Origin: Planctomycetales bacterium
GTDB lineage: Bacteria > Planctomycetota > Planctomycetia > Isosphaerales > Isosphaeraceae
Length of the DNA stretch: 32,884 nt
Assembly (NCBI GenBank): GCA_027449865.1
Contig: DAIDKV010000178.1
Location: 1 to 32,884 of the forward strand
Reading direction: 5' to 3'
Position numbers and translations under genes: made by a program. The notes under the pieces are model-generated. The model worked only from the letters and a program-made list of their open reading frames with translations, was not told the origin of the DNA and searched no databases. Of this stretch, positions 11,528 through 27,046 are shown piece after piece (the stretch's first letter is position 1; every line of letters starts with the position of its first letter).

Positions 11528-13888
11528 ATGCTGAGCCGAGATTTCTGGCCGCGAAGCGGGTTGCTGGTCCTCAGCCTCGCCGCCCTGGCCGCCGCGCCCC
11601 CAGAAAACCAGAGGCCGACCAACCGGCTGGCGAAGGAGACCAGTCCGTATCTCTTGCAGCACGCCCACAACCCGGTCGACTGGTATCCCTGGGGGCCCGA
11701 GGCGTTCGCGAAGGCCCGGGCCGAGAAGAAGCCCATCTTCCTCTCGGTCGGTTACAGCTCGTGCTACTGGTGCCACGTGATGGAACGTGAGAGCTTCGAG
11801 GACGCCGAGATCGCTCGGACTCTCAACGGGAATTTCGTCTGCATCAAGGTCGATCGTGAAGAACGTCCCGACGTCGACCAGATCTACATGACCGCCCTCC
11901 AGGCCCTCGGCCCAGGCGGCGGCGGCTGGCCGATGTCGATGTTCCTGATTCCCGATGGCCGGCCGTTCTTCGGCGTTACCTATCTCCCCCCGCGCGACCG
12001 GGCTGGCTCGACCGGCTTCCTCACGCTGCTCGGGGCCATTGCGAAGGGATGGACCACCGACCGGGCCAACATCGAGAAGGCGGCCGATGAGCTGACGGAG
12101 GCCGTCCGCGACCGCCTCCGCGCCGAGCAGGGACGAAAGCTCGCCCTCTCTCGCGATTGGGCCACTCGCGGACTTGACCTCCTCGCCGAACAATTCGACG
12201 CCGAGTACGGCGGCTTTGGCTTCAGCCCAGCGAGCCCTCGCCGGCCGAAGTTCCCCGAACCTGTCAATTTACTCTTCCTTCTCGATCGGGATCGTCGGTC
12301 GAAAAAGGAGGGTGCGAAATCACCCGTCGAGCCGATGACGATGCTCCGGACGACGCTCGACCATATGGCCCGCGGAGGAATTCGGGACCATCTCGGCGGC
12401 GGCTATCACCGGTACTCGACCGATCGCTACTGGGCCGTCCCACACTTCGAGAAAATGCTCTACGACAACGCCCAGCTTGCGACGGCTCACGTGCTCGCAT
12501 TCGAGGCCACCGGCGATCCACGCTGGCGTGCCGAGGTCGATTCGACCTTCGCGTTCATCGAACGGAAGCTCACCTCGCCCGAGGGCGGATTTTATTCCTC
12601 CCTCGACGCCGAGACGAAAGCCGGCGAAGGGGCGTACTACGTCTGGACCCGAGACGAGGTAAAGGCCGCCCTGGGCGAAGGACCCGAACTCGATCTCTTC
12701 GCCCGGTTCCTCGGCCTGAACGGCGAGCCAAACTTCGAGGACAGGCGATATGTCCTGCACGAACCGGCGGTCCCCTCCGCGACCGACGAAGTCCGCCTCT
12801 CGCCGATCCGGGCCAGGCTGCTGGCCGTTCGCGAGAACCGACCCGCGCCACGGCTTGACGACAAGATCCTCACCGCCTGGAACGGCCTGACGATCGCCGC
12901 CTACGCCGAGGGATACCGCGTTCTCCGAACCGACGCATACCGACGTACCGCCGAGAAGGCGGCCGGCTTCCTGCTCGCGAAACTCCGAACGCCCGACGGT
13001 GGCCTTCTCCGAACCTATCGCGACGGACAGGCTCGCTTGAAGGCTTACCTCGAGGATTACGCCTTCCTCGCCCATGGCCTGCTTCGTCTGCATGCCGCGA
13101 CGGGCGATGTTCGATGGCTCCGCGAGGCGCGTTCCCTGACCGACCGGATGATCGCCGACTTTGAGGACACCAGGGACGGCGGCTTCTTCTTCACCGCCGA
13201 CGACCATGAGAGCCTGCTCGCCCGCTCAAAGGATCCGATCGACAACGCCTTGCCCAGCGGCAACGCAATCGCAATCATCGATCTGCTTGCCCTTCATGAG
13301 CTGACCCGTGAGTCCTCGTATCGCGAGCACGCCGCAAAGGCGCTGGGAGCGTTCTCGACGACGATGGCGCGTCTCCCGCACGCCGTTCCCATGATGCTCC
13401 TCGGACTGGAAACGTACCTGGACGGCGAACGAGCGCCGGCCCCCTTGACACCGAGCCTCGAGCCCCAGGCCAGTGAGGTCTCGGCAACCGTCCGCGTCGA
13501 AAAGCCAATCGTGCCCCCAGGCGGCACGGTCGAGGCAGTCGTTTCCCTGGTGATCGCCGATGGGTGGCACCTCTACGCCCATGAGGCCGACCCCGCCGAG
13601 TCACGCCCAACCACGCTCCGCCTCGATCCCGCCGCCCGGAAATCGGCCGAGCTTTTGGAGGTCAGCTATCCCTCGGGCGCCTCGAAGGCACTGGCGTCCA
13701 TCGGGACGGGAAAGGTCCCACTCTACGAAGGGAAAATCGAGATTCGCGCACGCCTGCATGTCTCTGACAGGGCGATGCCTGGGCCGATGCGATGCACGCT
13801 CACGCTCGACTTTCAGGCGTGCAACGATCGCCTCTGCCGGGCGCCTGGGCGGATCTCGATTCCGGTGGAGCTTGAGATCCAAAGATGA
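11528..13888 (+). CDS. DUF255/YyaL-like thioredoxin-fold protein with C-terminal DsbD-alpha-like domain
   Basis: The 786-residue protein starts with a hydrophobic leader and then the family opening [24 protein letters not shown]. The thioredoxin-like domain has the active-site motif CYWC at 79-82. The middle part is the alpha/alpha-barrel of the YyaL/spermatogenesis-associated-20 family, with [21 protein letters not shown] and DNALPSGNA. From about residue 655 a beta-rich domain resembles the N-terminal domain of DsbD, ending in [12 protein letters not shown] with C765 and C770. Known members of about 680 residues lack this extension; here a periplasmic redox function is inferred. The stop overlaps the next start (ATGA). 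Confidence 0.88.
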
Positions 13889-16360: not shown

Positions 16361-17260
16361 ATGGCGGTCGGGCGGATCAAGATCGGGGTGTCGGGTCTGG
16401 TGGTGGTCGACAAGCCGAGGGGGATCACGTCGAGAACGGCGGTGGACCGGGTGATCCGCGCGGCCGGCCGGGCAAAGGCTGGGCACGCGGGGACGCTCGA
16501 CCCGTTGGCCTCGGGTGTACTGGTCGTCTGCCTGGGATCGGCCACGCGGCTGGTGGAGGAAGTGCAGGCGCAGCCCAAGTCGTACCGGACAGTGGTTCGC
16601 CTGGGGGCCCGGAGCGACACGCTCGACGCCGACGGCCAGATTGAGGAGGCAATCGATCCATGCCCACCCACGCGTGAGGCGATCGAGGCGGTGATCCGGC
16701 CGATGGTGGGTGAGGTCGCCCAGGTCCCGCCCGATTTTTCAGCATTGAAGATTGGCGGACGCCGGGCATACGAACTGGCGCGGGCCGGTCAAGCGATCGA
16801 ACTGGCGGCGAGGCGAGTCCAAATCGACCGGATCGAGGTGATCCGCTACGAGTGGCCTCACCTGGAACTGGAGGTCGATTGCGGATCGGGGACGTACATC
16901 CGCTCGATCGCTCGCGACATCGGCGAGGCGGTCGGCACGGGCGGGTTGGTGGAAGTCCTGGTCCGGACCCGGATCGGACCGTTCCGCCTGGATGCGGCAG
17001 TTAAACTCGAAGACCTGACCCCGGAGACGCTCGCCGCGGCGATCCGGCCGACGGTCGAGGCGACGGCGGGAATGCCGCGACGATCGCTCGACCCGGACGA
17101 GATCGCGACCATCGCGGCCGGGCGTTCGATCGCGGCCGGGCCGGGGTGTCTCGCAGGCCCATTGGCGCTGATCAACGCCGACGGCGAACTGGTCGCCATC
17201 GCCGAGGTCGCCCCGGATTTGCAATCGATCCGCCCGCGAAAGGTACTGATATCTCAGTGA
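16361..17260 (+). CDS. truB: tRNA pseudouridine-55 synthase TruB
   Basis: TruB makes pseudouridine 55 in the T-loop of tRNAs. The 299-residue protein shows VVVDKPRGITSRTAVD (14-29), the catalytic GHAGTLDPLASG with Asp47, RLGARSDTLDADG, PPDFSALKIGGRRAYELAR and the GSGTYIRSIARDIG motif. The length is normal. The ATG is supported by caggag seven bases upstream. It is not followed by other translation genes as in many bacteria; the next feature is a repeat element. Complete and apparently functional. Confidence 0.95.
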   Translation: MAVGRIKIGVSGLVVVDKPRGITSRTAVDRVIRAAGRAKAGHAGTLDPLASGVLVVCLGSATRLVEEVQAQPKSYRTVVRLGARSDTLDADGQIEEAIDPCPPTREAIEAVIRPMVGEVAQVPPDFSALKIGGRRAYELARAGQAIELAARRVQIDRIEVIRYEWPHLELEVDCGSGTYIRSIARDIGEAVGTGGLVEVLVRTRIGPFRLDAAVKLEDLTPETLAAAIRPTVEATAGMPRRSLDPDEIATIAAGRSIAAGPGCLAGPLALINADGELVAIAEVAPDLQSIRPRKVLISQ

Positions 17261-17288
17261 ATTCCGTTCAAAAACGCTGAAAAACCGT

Positions 17289-17835
17289 CTCACCACAGCG
17301 GAAACAGCGCGGTCGAGACGCATCTCCAACAGAGCGGATTCACCACAGAGTCACAGTGGACACAGCGCGGTCGAGACGCATCCCATCAGAACGGATTCAC
17401 CACAGAGTCACAGAGAGCACAGAGGGCACAGAGAAGAATTCGATGAGAAATCCTTGCGTTCAGAACGGATTGGCGGTTTGTAACCACGGGAACGTGCGCG
17501 ACGTACAGGATTTTGAAGGTTAGTCATACAGACGTCACGGAGACCGACAGAATGAATCCGTCCATCAATCTCACTCCTCGCTCCCGACGAGCCGCGGACA
17601 TCGCAGAGACGGTCCATCTCTCCCGTCTTTCTCTGTGACATATGTGAAACTGACTTTAAGAATCCTGTGCGCCGCGCACAATTTCATCACTTCAAATCAC
17701 ACAGGCATTTTGTCACACAATGTACTATAAATCTTTTTTCTTCTCTGTGCTCTCTGTGCCCTCTGCGACTCTGTGGTGAATCCGTCCTGATGGAGATGCG
17801 GCTCGACCGCGCTATGCCCGCTGTGGTGAATCGAT
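17289..17835. repeat. inverted-repeat element with tandem-duplicated arms, between truB and hflX
   Basis: The inner left arm 17391-17438 and the right arm 17738-17785 are reverse complements over 48 bases with three mismatches. They are built from a gattcaccacagag motif followed by cacagag-like repeats. The inversion extends outward: the left side has two further copies of a unit containing cagcgcggtcgagacgcatc (17300-17340 and 17360-17398), and the right side has one inverted copy (17786-17835). The interior, 17439-17737, is less GC-rich and has no supported gene. No transposase is present. It looks like a non-autonomous dispersed element; similar CACCACAGAG repeats are known from several bacterial genomes, so other copies are likely elsewhere in this genome. 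Confidence 0.7.
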
Positions 17836-17934
17836 TCTTCAAATCAAAATGCCGCTTCGAACCTTCTCGCTCCGTCGGTGTCGATCCCAGAAAAGACATT
17901 CGAACAGGAACCAGGTGACGAGCGTACAGAAATC

Positions 17935-19368
17935 ATGACAAACTCAGAACCGTCGTTGACGCCTGAATACGGGGGCCTTAGAATTCGACCAGCGCGTGAG
18001 GCGCAGGGTCTGTTCCGGTCGATCCCATCCTTCGACACATCGAGGTCGAAACCCGCCTTGATTGAAATCAATCGCATCGAACGTCCGGGGCGTCGCGAGA
18101 AGGCCATCCTGGTGGGGGTGGTCCTCCCGCCGGGCCCCGAGGAATCGTATCCCGACGACCCACTCGATGAGCTGCGCGGGCTTGCCAAGACGGCCGGCCT
18201 GAACGTCGTCGGTAGTCTGCTCCAGAAGCGGCAGCAGATCGACATCGCCACCTACATCGGCTCCGGCAAGGTTGAGGAGCTGAAGGAAATCGTCGAGGCC
18301 CAGGAGGCCGACGTCGTCGTCTTTGACAACGATCTCGGGCCGGCGCAGACGCGCAATCTGGAGAAGGCGCTCGGCGTGAAGGTGGTTGACCGGACCGAGG
18401 TGATCCTCGACATCTTCGCGACCCATGCGCAGACGCACGAGGCGCACCTTCAGGTCGAGCTAGCGCAACTCGAGTACGCGATGCCTCGGCTGAAGCGGAT
18501 GTGGACGCACCTCTCGCGATACAAGGGGGGCATCGGCGTCCGCGGCCCTGGCGAGAAGCAGCTTGAAGAGGACCGCCGGCTCGTCGGCCACCGCATCCAG
18601 GAGCTGAAGGCGAAGCTCGCCAAGATCCAGGCGCGGAAGGAGCGTGAGGTCGCCAGCCGGGGCGAGGTCCCCACGGTCTCGCTGGTCGGCTACACGAACG
18701 CCGGCAAGTCGACGCTGATGAACGCGCTGACGGACGCGGGCGTCCTGGTCGAGAACAAGCTGTTCGCGACCCTCGACACCCGGACCCGTCGCTGGCGGTT
18801 CCGCGGCGGCGGCCAGTCGTTGCTCTCCGACACGGTCGGTTTCATCAAGGACCTGCCCCACGCGCTGGTGGCCTCGTTCAAGGCGACCCTCGAAGAGGCC
18901 CGCCAGGCCGATTTGCTGCTGCACGTGGTGGATGCTTCCAGCCCCGAGGCCGAGACGCAAATCCGCGCGGTGCAATCTGTTCTGGCCGAGCTCGGTCTGG
19001 AAAATCACCCGACGCTGCTCGTTCTGAACAAGGCCGACCGGGTTCCCGATCGATCTTACCTCGACGTCCTGCGGGCTCATCACGCCCAGACCGTCACCAT
19101 CAGCGCTGCGCAGGGTGAAGGGCTCGACCGACTGGAGCTGGCCGTCCGCGAGGCGCTCAGCGACCGCGCCCTGGAAGCGGAAGTGGAGACGGGCGTGGAG
19201 AATGGTCGCGTGCTCGCCTACCTGGCCCAGCACGCCCAGATCCACGATCGGACCTACGCGGAGGACCGGGTGCTCCTGCAGTGCCGGATTCCTCGCCGAT
19301 GCCTCGATTTCCTATATGAAAACGGCGTCCAAATCCGCGAGAACGGCCAGCGGCTGCATGCATCATGA
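17935..19368 (+). CDS. hflX: ribosome-associated GTPase HflX
   Basis: HflX splits stalled or stress-inactivated 70S ribosomes. The 477-residue protein has the HflX N-terminal domain (QKRQQIDIATYIGSGKVEEL; VVVFDNDLGPAQTRNLE), the linker with GGIGVRGPGEKQLEEDRR, and a GTPase domain with the P-loop GYTNAGKST (about 252-260), DTVGFIKDLP and NKAD. All G motifs are intact. The ATG at 17935 is chosen; an in-frame GTG at 17878 would add 19 residues and lies just beyond the inverted repeat, with no better binding site. Monocistronic; any promoter would have to lie in or next to the repeat element. Confidence 0.95.
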   Translation: MTNSEPSLTPEYGGLRIRPAREAQGLFRSIPSFDTSRSKPALIEINRIERPGRREKAILVGVVLPPGPEESYPDDPLDELRGLAKTAGLNVVGSLLQKRQQIDIATYIGSGKVEELKEIVEAQEADVVVFDNDLGPAQTRNLEKALGVKVVDRTEVILDIFATHAQTHEAHLQVELAQLEYAMPRLKRMWTHLSRYKGGIGVRGPGEKQLEEDRRLVGHRIQELKAKLAKIQARKEREVASRGEVPTVSLVGYTNAGKSTLMNALTDAGVLVENKLFATLDTRTRRWRFRGGGQSLLSDTVGFIKDLPHALVASFKATLEEARQADLLLHVVDASSPEAETQIRAVQSVLAELGLENHPTLLVLNKADRVPDRSYLDVLRAHHAQTVTISAAQGEGLDRLELAVREALSDRALEAEVETGVENGRVLAYLAQHAQIHDRTYAEDRVLLQCRIPRRCLDFLYENGVQIRENGQRLHAS

Positions 19369-22437: not shown

Positions 22438-22655
22438 CGGTGGTCCCTCCTCGGTCGGTGCAGGTTCTCGATTCGCTCCGGCGCGATGCCGGACAACGAT
22501 CGTAGCGATGATTATGTCACGCCCGTCCCGCGATTCAACGATTCCGTTGTATTCCCGCGTGTGATTTTTCTGGAGAGCGACGCCTACTTCTCATAGGATG
22601 GTTTGAATCGCCGTGCCACCATCCTCGCTCGATGGAACCGCCGGGAGATGAACGA

Positions 22656-24803
22656 ATGAACGCTCTCGTTCCGCTGGCCCTGGTCCTGTTCGCCGCCGGT
22701 CGAGAAGATGCGACCTCTCCCACACCCAATGACCAGGCCGCCTACCAGAACATGGCAAGGAGCGCCGGGAAAGATCCTGCGACGCAGGTGAAATTGGCCC
22801 TCTGGTGCGAGGCGCACGGGATGTCAGCCGAGCGGATGAAGCACCTCGCCGCCGCGGTGGTTCAGGACCCCGCCCACGCCGTCGCTCGCGGCCTGATGGG
22901 ACTGGTCGCTCGCGGCGGGAAGTGGGAGCGGCCCGAGGAAATCAGCCGCGAAGTGAAGGACGATCCCCGGCTCAAGGCCCTGCGCGAGGAATACTTCCAG
23001 CGCAGGGCTCGAACTCCCGACAAGGCCGACGACCAGTGGAGGCTCGCCCGATGGTGCGAGCAGAACGGTCTGAAAGAAGAAGCGACCGCTCATTATCACG
23101 CCGTCTTGCGGCTAGAGCCGCGGCGCGATTCCGTCTGGAAGCACCTGGGTTTCAAGAAGGCCGCCGGGCAGTGGGCCCGACCCGAACAGATCGAGGCCAA
23201 GAAGCGAGAAACGGAGGCACAGTCCCGGGCTGATCGGCGGTGGCAGCCGATCCTGGAGCGGTGGCGCGCCGGCCTCGCCAGTCGGGACAGGGAGCGGCGG
23301 GCCCACGCCGAGGAGGGGCTGGCGGGCGTGACCGACGCGAGGGCCGTGCCCATGATCTGGTCGATCTTCGCCCGCGGGAAGGCCAATGATCAGCAGGTCG
23401 CGATCCGGATGCTGGCGCGGATCGATTCGCCTGGAGCCTCGCGGGCGCTGGCCATGCTCGCCATCCACGGCAGGACTCCAGAACTTCGTCGGAATGCCGC
23501 GGAGATTCTCAGAAACCGCGACCCACGCGACTACCTCGGCCTCCTGGTCAGAATGGTCCGCGACCCGCTCAAGTATGAGATTCGGCCAGGCGAAGAACCG
23601 AACTCGCCGGGACAGCTCTTCGTCGAGGGCCGCCGCTACAACATCGTTCGCCGCTACATGATCAGTGAGGAAGGAAACTCCTTCGCACGGCTCAACAACA
23701 TACCACCTCGACTCTTCGCCGATGGAGTTCCCTTCGATCCAACGGGATACTGGGAATCCGGCCTGGCGATGCAGGCCATGATGTGGAACAACCCCTTCGG
23801 TTTCGCCGGGGCACCGGTCTCGGCGACGCCCGTCAACGGCTCGATGCCGGCCCCGGCGAACGCCCGAGCGAGCGCAGCGCTCGGCATGATCGCGAAGGCC
23901 GTACCGGCTGGAGGTCCACCGTCGCCGTTTGTCGGCTCAGTGCCGAGCGCGCAGGCGCTGGCCGCGGAGCGAGACCTCGTCATCGCTCAGCGCCTCGCCC
24001 TCCTGAATCAGGTCGTCGAACTCAGCCGGCAACAGCTCCGTAACGACATCCAGACCGTCGAGAGCTACAACGCCGATGTCCGGCAAGTCAACGGTCAGGT
24101 TGTCCCGGTCCTGAACTATCTCACCGGCGTCGATATCGGCGGGTCGGGAGAAGATTGGCAGGCCTGGTGGACCGACCAGCAAGGCTACGCCTACACATCG
24201 CCGGATACCAGCGAGAAGCCGACGTACGAAAATATCGTGATGAATCCCTTCGTCTTACCCGGGCACTCGTGCTTTGCCGCGGGTACCCTGGTTCGTACCC
24301 TGGAAGGCACCAAGGCGATCGAAACCATCTGGTCCGGGGACCAGGTACTTTCGCAGGACGTCCGGACGGGTGCCCTCAACTATCTTCCGGTCGTCGCCGT
24401 CTACCACAACAAACCCGCGGCCACCTATCGGATCAGGCTTGAGGGCCAGGAAATCATCGCGACGGGCATCCACCGGTTGTGGAAGGCAGGCAAGGGCTGG
24501 ACGATGGCCCGAGAACTCAAGCCCGGTGACGTCCTCCGCACCCTCTCCGGCCTCGCGCCGATCCAGTCGGTCGATCCCGATCGCGTCCAGCCGGTCTTCA
24601 ACCTCAAGGTCTCCGAGGGGAACAGCTACTTTGTGGGTGAGATCAGCGTTCTTGCTCACGACAACAGCCCAGTGGAACCAGTCGCCGAGCCGTTTGATGC
24701 CGTCAGGCCGATCGACGTCGTGACCGCACCGGCTTCCCCAACACCCGACCCAGCGCCAAGGCCCTCGTCCTCCACGCGCCACCGTTCCATGCTCGGTCAC
24801 TGA
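22656..24803 (+). CDS. HINT-domain secreted protein, copy 1
   Basis: The start at 22656 gives a short hydrophobic leader (MNALVPLALVLFAAG) and has gggag eight bases upstream; the ATG at 22632 adds eight polar residues. The N-terminal half carries TPR-like motifs (LALWCEAHGMSAERMKHLAAAV) and a HEAT-like stretch (ASRALAMLAIHGRTPELRRNAA), followed by a variable Ala/Pro/Asn linker. The C-terminal HINT domain runs from Cys539 (SCFAAGTLV) through ATGIHRLWKAGKGW to HDN (668-670) and Ser671. HINT domains self-splice or self-cleave. The remaining 45 residues form a short tail with EPFDAV and a terminal RSMLGH, not a toxin. First of three tandem paralogues. Confidence 0.85.
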   Translation: MNALVPLALVLFAAGREDATSPTPNDQAAYQNMARSAGKDPATQVKLALWCEAHGMSAERMKHLAAAVVQDPAHAVARGLMGLVARGGKWERPEEISREVKDDPRLKALREEYFQRRARTPDKADDQWRLARWCEQNGLKEEATAHYHAVLRLEPRRDSVWKHLGFKKAAGQWARPEQIEAKKRETEAQSRADRRWQPILERWRAGLASRDRERRAHAEEGLAGVTDARAVPMIWSIFARGKANDQQVAIRMLARIDSPGASRALAMLAIHGRTPELRRNAAEILRNRDPRDYLGLLVRMVRDPLKYEIRPGEEPNSPGQLFVEGRRYNIVRRYMISEEGNSFARLNNIPPRLFADGVPFDPTGYWESGLAMQAMMWNNPFGFAGAPVSATPVNGSMPAPANARASAALGMIAKAVPAGGPPSPFVGSVPSAQALAAERDLVIAQRLALLNQVVELSRQQLRNDIQTVESYNADVRQVNGQVVPVLNYLTGVDIGGSGEDWQAWWTDQQGYAYTSPDTSEKPTYENIVMNPFVLPGHSCFAAGTLVRTLEGTKAIETIWSGDQVLSQDVRTGALNYLPVVAVYHNKPAATYRIRLEGQEIIATGIHRLWKAGKGWTMARELKPGDVLRTLSGLAPIQSVDPDRVQPVFNLKVSEGNSYFVGEISVLAHDNSPVEPVAEPFDAVRPIDVVTAPASPTPDPAPRPSSSTRHRSMLGH

Positions 24804-24829: not shown

Positions 24830-27046
24830 ATGCTCGCGATGGCCCTGCTCTGCCTCGGACTTGTCGAAAGCGCCGACCCCTCCTCGGCCGACAAGACCGC
24901 CTACCAGGAGGCGGCGGCGAAGGCCGGCAAGGATCCGTCGGCCCAGGTCAAGCTGGCCCTCTGGTGCGAGGCGCACGGGATGTCGGCCGAGCGGATGAAG
25001 CACCTCGCCGCCGCGGTGGCTCAGGACCCCGCCCACGCCATCGCTCGCGGCCTGATGGGACTGGTCGCTCGCGGCGGGAAGTGGGAACGCCCCGAGGACG
25101 TCACCCGAGAAGTCAACGACGATCCCCGGCTCAAGGCCCTGCGCGACGAATACTTCCAGCGCAGGGCTCGAACTCCCGACAAGGCCGACGACCAGTTCAA
25201 ACTCGCTCAGTGGTGCGACGAGAACGGACTGAAGGAAGAGGCGATCGCCCATTATCGGGCCGTCATCCGTCTCGACCCGAAACGCGAGATGGCGTGGCAT
25301 CGCCTGGGGTTCAAGAAGGTGAAGGGGCGCTGGGTCAAGCCCGAGTGGCAGAACGCCGCGAAGAAGGAATTCGAGGAGCAACACCGGGCCAACAAGCACT
25401 GGAAGCCCGTTCTAGAGCGAATTCGATCGGGGCTGGAAAGCAAGGACAGGGAGCGTCGCGAGCGGGCCGAGGCCGAGGCGTTCCAGGTAACCGACCCGCG
25501 CGCCGTGCCGATGGTCTGGTCCGTCTTCGTCCCGCGTGGGGTCTCTGGCCAGGTGATCGCGGTCAGACTACTGGGGCAGATCGATGCGCCGGGCGCCTCG
25601 CGGGCGCTGGCGATGCTGGCGATCTCCGGAAAATCGGGGGAAGTGCGCGGCCAGGCGGCACAGATCCTCCGCCAGCGCGATCCGCGGGACTTCGCACCGA
25701 TCCTCGTCGCGATGATCCGCGACCCGATCAAGTACGAGGTCAAGCCGGTGCAAGGACCGGGGAAAGCGGGCGAACTGGTGATCCACGAGGGGACCGTCAA
25801 GCGAGAGCGGCTCTACACGCCGCTCTCCGGGCCGAACTTCACGATGCAACCAGGCGACCGAATCGTCACGGGACCGGATGGTCTTCCAGTGCTGGATCAG
25901 TTGGTGGGTGTCACGAACATAAACATAGGTAACACACTCACCGGCGACAGCTACATGAATCCTTTCAGTGGAATGTATCCCGGCATGGGCCTCGGCGTTC
26001 CGGGGCCAGGAGCGACCGGACAACTCACCGGCATGCTGGAGAAGGCGGGGGTTTCCGCCGCTCAGAGCGCGGGAGTGGCCCGTACGATTGTCGGAAATAG
26101 CCGATCCAATCTGACCGCGTTCCAGAACTTGAGGCCCGAAGGCTACTTCGTCGCCGAATTCGGGAACTACCTGCAAATCCCGATCGGCGACCTTCAGCGT
26201 GACGCGCAGCTCTCGGCCCAGGTCGCGCGGATGCAGCTCGAGGGCGATGTTCAGGCCATAGACGCTTACAACGCCCCGATCCTCAACCTCAACCGCCGAA
26301 TCCGCCAGATCCTCAAGGATGTCGCCGGGGTCGATCCGGGCAACGATCGATCGGCCTGGACGAAATGGCTGGTCGACCTCTTCGGGTACGCGGCGAGTCC
26401 TCAGAAAGCCTCTGCCGACCAGACGACCGTGATCGAGCAAGTCCCGCTCGAATACGTGCCGCAGGCGCCCCCACTGTCGATGACGTCTTCACTCCTGGGA
26501 GTCTCCTGGCACCACTCGTGTTTCGCCGCCGGGACGCTGGTACGCACACTCGATGGCCCACGTCGAATCGAGACGATCGCGGCCGGTGACCAGGTCCTGA
26601 ACCAGGACCCGACCTCAGGCGAATTGCGATACCGGGCCGTCGTCACGGCCTTCCACAACCCGCCCAACGGTACTTACCGCATCCAGCTCGATTCTGGCGA
26701 GGCGATCGTCGCCACCGGAATCCACCGGTTTTGGAAGGCCGGCAAGGGCTGGACGATGGCCCGAGACCTCAAGCCCGGCGATGTCCTCCGCACCCTTGGA
26801 GGCGTCGCGACCGTCCAGTCGGTCGATCCCGATCGCGTCCAGCCCGTTTTCAACCTCGAGGTCGCCGAGGGACAAAGTTTCTTCGTCGGCGAATCAGGCG
26901 TCCTGGCTCACGACAACAGCACGATCCACCCCGTCCCCGAGCCGTTCGACGCGGTCGGGCCGATCGACGTCGCCACCGCACCGGCGCCGGCCTCAACGCC
27001 GAATCCCGCATCCCAGGCCCATCGCCGTTCGATGCTCGGACGCTGA
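24830..27046 (+). CDS. HINT-domain secreted protein, copy 2
   Basis: The 738-residue paralogue starts with the leader MLAMALLCLGLVESA after a gaggag site, 26 bases after copy 1. The same layout follows: TPR-like N-terminus, HEAT-like stretch, a distinct linker rich in Gly/Met/Pro (around GMYPGMGLGVPGPG), and a HINT domain from Cys564 to HDN (694-696) and Ser697. The block TGIHRFWKAGKGWTM is present, so the splicing-type residues (first Cys, TxxH, terminal Asn) are all there. The tail has EPFDAVGPID and ends in RRSMLGR. DNA of its N-terminal part is nearly identical to copy 1 over about 235 bases. Confidence 0.87.
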   Translation: MLAMALLCLGLVESADPSSADKTAYQEAAAKAGKDPSAQVKLALWCEAHGMSAERMKHLAAAVAQDPAHAIARGLMGLVARGGKWERPEDVTREVNDDPRLKALRDEYFQRRARTPDKADDQFKLAQWCDENGLKEEAIAHYRAVIRLDPKREMAWHRLGFKKVKGRWVKPEWQNAAKKEFEEQHRANKHWKPVLERIRSGLESKDRERRERAEAEAFQVTDPRAVPMVWSVFVPRGVSGQVIAVRLLGQIDAPGASRALAMLAISGKSGEVRGQAAQILRQRDPRDFAPILVAMIRDPIKYEVKPVQGPGKAGELVIHEGTVKRERLYTPLSGPNFTMQPGDRIVTGPDGLPVLDQLVGVTNINIGNTLTGDSYMNPFSGMYPGMGLGVPGPGATGQLTGMLEKAGVSAAQSAGVARTIVGNSRSNLTAFQNLRPEGYFVAEFGNYLQIPIGDLQRDAQLSAQVARMQLEGDVQAIDAYNAPILNLNRRIRQILKDVAGVDPGNDRSAWTKWLVDLFGYAASPQKASADQTTVIEQVPLEYVPQAPPLSMTSSLLGVSWHHSCFAAGTLVRTLDGPRRIETIAAGDQVLNQDPTSGELRYRAVVTAFHNPPNGTYRIQLDSGEAIVATGIHRFWKAGKGWTMARDLKPGDVLRTLGGVATVQSVDPDRVQPVFNLEVAEGQSFFVGESGVLAHDNSTIHPVPEPFDAVGPIDVATAPAPASTPNPASQAHRRSMLGR

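Follow-up and report, generated by a model that had tools for sequence, protein, structure and literature searches.

An inverted-repeat element of about 564 bp lies between truB and hflX in the genome of a Planctomycetales bacterium (G000; 8.48 Mb, 278 contigs). Judged by its sequence, it very probably belongs to a dispersed family of inward heptad arrays, and this family is very probably associated with genes of the GxxExxY family, which code for a predicted PD-(D/E)XK nuclease. We lean slightly towards reading the element as a gene-less, non-autonomous member of a GxxExxY-associated palindromic array family that resembles REPIN/REPtron systems, with the nuclease in place of RAYT. The window is the whole stretch of 32,884 nt that was analysed, and coordinates refer to it unless a contig is named.

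Architecture of the element between truB and hflX

The preliminary description had placed an inverted repeat at 17289-17835, with tandem units extending its left arm and two housekeeping genes as neighbours. The repeat, the tandem units and the neighbours were all recovered, and the limits were corrected to about 17278-17841. Upstream is truB (16361-17260, + strand; TIGR00431, E 2.1e-66) and downstream is hflX (17935-19368, + strand; TIGR03156, E 1.2e-142). Two pairs of arms were found by repeat search. The inner left arm (17383-17438, + strand, 56 nt) contains four CACAGAG heptads at 17401, 17409, 17418 and 17427. The inner right arm (17738-17793, - strand) contains the reverse-complement heptads at 17743, 17752 and 17769, and a CTCTGCG variant at 17761. 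These two arms are 93% complementary over 56 nt, with a spacing of exactly 299 nt. The outer left arm (17278-17365, + strand) pairs with the outer right arm (17754-17841, - strand) at 84% over 88 nt. Within the left arm, tandem unit 1 (17294-17324, + strand) and tandem unit 2 (17352-17382, + strand) form a direct repeat of 31 nt with 94% identity, and a second direct repeat of 40 nt (17326-17365 and 17383-17422) has 88% identity. The tandem units of the left arm measure 57-58 bp.

The 299-bp interior had been described as lacking a gene and having a lower GC content. It contains no gene and its GC content is 0.48, compared with 0.52 for the element and 0.64 for the window. It is not featureless, since a 59-bp module is present there twice, in inverted orientation. 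The degenerate copy (17477-17532, + strand) has a local alignment score of 56 and the second, inverted copy (17649-17698, - strand) has a score of 76 and 88% identity by blastn, against a maximum of 28 among 300 shuffles. A GxxExxY profile built in this analysis found no significant remnant of the gene in six frames of the interior, and Rfam had no match in the window.

With the two inverted modules inside its arms, the element is one large imperfect palindrome. Because of these modules, the complete 564 nt is predicted to fold as one long hairpin, as had been anticipated for its RNA. The predicted RNA fold of 17278-17841 has an MFE of -280.8 kcal/mol versus -168.8 on average for shuffles (sd 7.6), which gives a z of -14.74, and none of 100 shuffles was equally good. 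Single copies of the 59-bp module are not stable hairpins (z about 0 for the three copies folded).

Elsewhere in the window, a pretoxin HINT domain lies close to the C-terminus of each of two adjacent large proteins (22632-24803 and 24830-27046; PF07591, with E values of 5e-14 and 1e-14), and this pair is possibly a tandem duplicate. Close to the C-terminus of a Thioredox_DsbH (DUF255) protein at 11528-13888 is a DsbD N-terminal-like domain.

Copies in the genome and in sister species

The preliminary description had named a genome-wide copy count as a check on its suggestion of a transposable element, which a solitary copy would have contradicted. Many copies were found. The core motif CACCACAGAGNCACAGAG, with up to 2 mismatches allowed, has 94 matches (47+47) in G000 versus 4 for the reversed-pattern control. 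By our own count of the list, they are spread across 41 contigs. Most are CACAGAG heptad arrays that point inward. To describe the pairing of arms, 35 clusters were picked by script from 48 fetched sources. An inward pair is present in 28 of the 35, and 30 transitions are inward versus 5 outward. Arms of the same cluster are more alike than swapped arms (mean 12.6 versus 9.8; 31 of 5000 permutations). Simple copies are roughly 110-190 bp long, considerably shorter than the copy in the window. The arrays are found beside many other genes and are mostly intergenic. A high-GC3 ORF spans 4 of the 35 clusters, which may be inside genes or reflect spurious calls, and the other 31 are not spanned.

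Several single loci were also recorded. At L110 (G000 C52 12788-13017), two whole inward elements form a tandem whose starts are about 130 bp apart and whose flanks match, an apparent duplication of the complete element. CACCGAG variants are common to both arms in L141 (C260) and L114 (C90). Contigs C69, C102, C126, C139, C218, C253 and C274 have arrays near their ends, so the assembly may break at arrays and more copies may exist than were counted.

A 70-bp query for the 59-bp module matched 19 times in G000, across 16 contigs, and once in G003. There were none in G001, G002, G004, G014 or G039. Because G000 has 19 matches versus one in one sister species (G003) and none in the other (G001), the module subfamily has, as far as these counts indicate, multiplied recently in a lineage-specific burst. 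The completeness of G001 and G003 is 89% and 77%, so a few misses are possible.

Around most of the array sites that were compared, G001 and G003 are syntenic with G000, in most cases with 80-94% DNA identity. At the truB-hflX site, the array of G001 is small, each arm consisting of a single unit, and G002 and G004 are without an array. At C132, a small array is present in both sisters and G000 is about 275 bp longer. Orthologous sites free of arrays were found for C124 and C154 in G001 and for C52 in G003, in alignments judged by eye. The C123 site was not counted as array-free in G003, since a degenerate array is present there. A 48-bp tandem duplication separates G001 and G003, and an 8-bp loss was found at C141 (L125/L276). 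The two arms at C90 carry matching differences in the sister species, as would be expected if arms were converted or replaced together.

The suggestion of a non-autonomous transposable element was thus upheld by the dispersed copies, the lineage burst and the array-free sites, but not by a transposase. None was found with the element when Y1_Tnp, the family sought, was searched for. No target-site duplication could be defined either; no junction was clean enough, and orthologous sites were too diverged outside genes.

GxxExxY genes and heptad arrays

The lead that GxxExxY genes may occur among such repeats was put to the test. Four PF13366/TIGR04256 genes are present in G000, with profile scores of 141, 144, 138 and 138 bits versus a cut-off of 35. 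Those at C20 and C266 sit inside inward CACAGAG arrays. Heptad flanks are weaker at the remaining two. The gene at C101 has one CACGGAG heptad on each side, and at C151 an upstream frame near the contig start encodes CGCAGAG-like repeats (judged by eye). The orthologue of the C20 gene in G003 and those of the C266 gene in G001 and G003 occupy arrays at corresponding positions, and no movement of the gene copies is apparent. The dN/dS values of orthologues in the sister species (0.082, 0.057 and 0.056) indicate strong purifying selection on the gene. The 59-bp module is absent from every gene-bearing copy in G000, and no master of the window element's own subfamily was therefore identified.

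Two other candidate partners were rejected. The 23S rRNA intervening-sequence proteins (PF05635) are small genes from inverted-repeat inserts. None of their three loci in G000 had heptad pairs. The RAYT/Y1 transposases were likewise without heptad pairs at all six Y1_Tnp loci of G000.

We next consider the protein. The AlphaFold2 model has a pLDDT of 92.8. Its best structural match is 4ic1 (SSO0001), with a Z of 9.4 over 101 residues, yet at 15% identity and with a Foldseek E of only 0.014. SSO0001 is presumably a Cas4-family nuclease. The match to PF13366 (PDDEXK_3) supports a restriction-endonuclease-like core, and by its model the protein is a minimal Cas4-like PD-(D/E)XK nuclease. Hjc, Cas4 and restriction enzymes in the lower structural rows (Z 5-7) were not used as evidence of function; many PD-(D/E)XK proteins match at middling Z. 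The PDB had no sequence relative, and PADLOC and PHROGs had no match for the two GxxExxY proteins searched. Across 79 aligned sequences (76 of the 80 loci described below, the 4 with stops being left out, and three of the four G000 genes), H29, G33, G35, E38, Y41, E48, D78, K90, N119, F120 and G128 are invariant, and E88 is conserved in 90% or more. The active-site motifs, with D78, E88 and K90, are intact. Phyla are intermingled in the gene tree (33 changes of label, with a minimum of 14), which puts three of G000's genes in different parts, with many forks unresolved. Matches with in-frame stops or fragments, apparently decayed gene copies, were seen in G013, G145, G186 and others. At the sensitivity of the search, GxxExxY was found in 8 of 72,556 plasmid records and in none of 50,697 phages. 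This near-absence is unlike many mobile genes.

The pairing of gene and array was then examined across taxa. A heptad pair was defined as two occurrences of C[AG]C[AG][AG]AG with 1-2 nt between them, no more than 400 bp from a GxxExxY gene. Among 80 loci from named genomes, 55 had an inward pair (28 of these on both sides), 2 had outward pairs only and 23 had none. The positives come from 14 phyla, including one Methanothrix record. The locus of Thioalkalivibrio sp. ALJ16 (L213) is among those flanked by inward heptads upstream and downstream. Bacteroidota were weaker, with 3 positives among 12 loci. Another 30 loci were sampled from the window's phylum; 23 of these had an inward pair, 19 of them on both sides, and none was outward-only. 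Several loci without the strict heptad (23 of 80 and 7 of 30 lacked a strict pair) carry close variants, for example CACGACGG or CGCCAAGG. In the far flanks of the same loci (1500-1900 bp away), heptads were found at 3 loci in 130 windows, where any orientation was counted, whereas the near test counted inward pairs. Control loci of hflX had heptad pairs in 0 of 22. The 71 of 80 loci with 400 bp on both sides were also subjected to a motif-free arm test, in which the upstream flank was matched to the downstream flank as an inverted repeat. At a score of at least 36, 34 of 71 were positive with their own arms, compared with 15 of 355 with swapped arms and 0 of 51 in far flanks.

Co-occurrence was also counted at the level of genomes. 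In 199 genomes of the phylum, the triple-heptad pattern is present in 42 and the gene in 96. The gene is found in 38 of the 42 array-bearing genomes versus 58 of the 157 array-less ones (Fisher p 1.7e-10, on counts read by eye from two lists). It was undetected in four array-bearing genomes (G077, G109, G111 and G162), and all genomes with at least 3 array matches carry it. Among 40 relatives including G000, 9 match the DNA of the window element. All of these have the gene except G029, which has one weak match, and 16 of the remaining 31 relatives have it.

Comparison with known systems and the spread of the arrays

In the open-access literature searched, the six heptad strings did not occur, no title on heptad, palindrome and planctomycete topics or on MITEs concerned such an array family, and no paper was found on the PDDEXK superfamily. 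One passage of PMC8934634 matched the family terms (GxxExxY, PF13366, TIGR04256, PDDEXK_3), and its subject is a CRISPR-like RT. The four G000 genes belong to TIGR04256 / PF13366 PDDEXK_3 by profile, and the one-line library descriptions of these families are silent on flanking heptad arrays.

REPIN/RAYT is, by likeness, the closest working analogy for the family. Passages of PMC3116915 and PMC8266576 describe REPINs as hairpin-forming extragenic doublets that amplify within genomes, with few linked genes kept under selection. The arrays of G000 are likewise dispersed inverted doublets, mostly extragenic and predicted to form hairpins (28 of 35 clusters inward and 31 of 35 outside a high-GC3 ORF). 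A few copies are linked to one conserved gene, the proposed mover, which is kept like a housekeeping gene. However, the linked gene codes for a PD-(D/E)XK nuclease here and for a HuH tyrosine transposase (RAYT/TnpA-REP) in REPtrons, and the repeats here are variable heptad arrays with a CACAGAG core. The family cannot be placed within REPIN/RAYT, because the gene linked to it encodes a nuclease and the Y1_Tnp loci of G000 lack heptads.

In the reading that we slightly favour, CACAGAG runs (more widely CRCRRAG, with a period of 8-9) face inward at the two ends, which would let one strand fold back. The array would be extruded as a hairpin or cruciform during replication or supercoiling. The nuclease from gene-bearing copies would recognise the heptad hairpins and cut in or beside the heptads. 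Repair would then copy array DNA to other sites, preferentially to existing heptad arrays, and gene-less copies would be moved in trans. The arrays would be enlarged by slippage and by tandem duplication of their units, which measure 8 bp and about 48-57 bp. Signs of such nested growth are seen at the window site and at C132, which hold small arrays in sister species. We consider the chances of nuclease-driven spread to be about even. Weighing against this reading are the failure to find a junction with a readable target site, the lack of a gene-bearing copy with the window element's own module, the fixed positions of the C20 and C266 genes, the GxxExxY loci without a strict heptad pair, the array-less genomes with the gene and the four array-bearing ones in which it was undetected, its near-absence from plasmids and phages, and the single heptad per side at C101. 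A broader proposal is more tentative and, in our opinion, rather doubtful. It holds that GxxExxY nucleases and inward heptad arrays constitute a widespread, undescribed class of mobile repeats in Bacteria and at least one archaeal record, in which a single-domain PD-(D/E)XK protein moves arrays in cis and in trans without a transposase, the window element being a passenger.

The arrays may instead owe their growth and spread to passive events, namely slippage, template switching and similar errors of host replication and repair at palindromes, with GxxExxY as a hairpin-processing caretaker or persisting cargo. We consider this unlikely, though it deserves attention. The gains and losses of 8-bp and 48-bp units speak for it, and a caretaker would agree with the strong purifying selection on the gene, with copies fixed in place between sister species and with the Cas4-like, exonuclease-type fold of the model. 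However, one module reached 16 contigs in a single lineage, which exceeds local slippage, and array genomes coincide with gene-bearing ones (38 of 42).

A function in RNA is improbable. A long hairpin in the truB-hflX transcript might terminate or stabilise it or undergo RNase processing, and might be retained for that purpose. The very stable predicted fold (z -14.7), the resemblance of same-cluster arms noted above and the change in both arms at C90 would fit. However, folding as RNA is a property of any DNA palindrome, and a z of about 0 was obtained for the 59-bp module by itself. The element at this site differs strongly in size and content in the sister G001 and is absent in G002 and G004, and the same arrays adjoin many other genes.

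The reading that we expect least is a classical MITE or REP that depends on a transposase encoded at another place in the genome, either RAYT/Y1 or a different insertion-sequence enzyme. The inverted ends, the size (roughly 110-560 bp), the mostly intergenic dispersal and the array-free sites in sister species speak for it. Against it are Y1_Tnp loci without heptads (0 of 6; Y1_Tnp being the one transposase family sought), no defined target-site duplication, and arms that are variable heptad arrays instead of fixed terminal repeats. By the passage of PMC10969869 on MITEs, the element is similar to these in being short, gene-less and dispersed with inverted ends, at about 564 bp here and roughly 110-190 bp in simple copies, for an expected 50-500 bp or so. 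It differs from that description in that no target-site duplication or parental transposase (Y1_Tnp sought) was found, a nuclease is encoded in the parent-like copies, and the arms grow by units.

The pairing of gene and array offers GxxExxY, a widespread family, a testable substrate, and offers the heptad repeats, which recur as such arrays in many environmental genomes, a candidate driver. If the nuclease does move the arrays, this would be a route of repeat spread that uses neither a HuH nor a DDE transposase.
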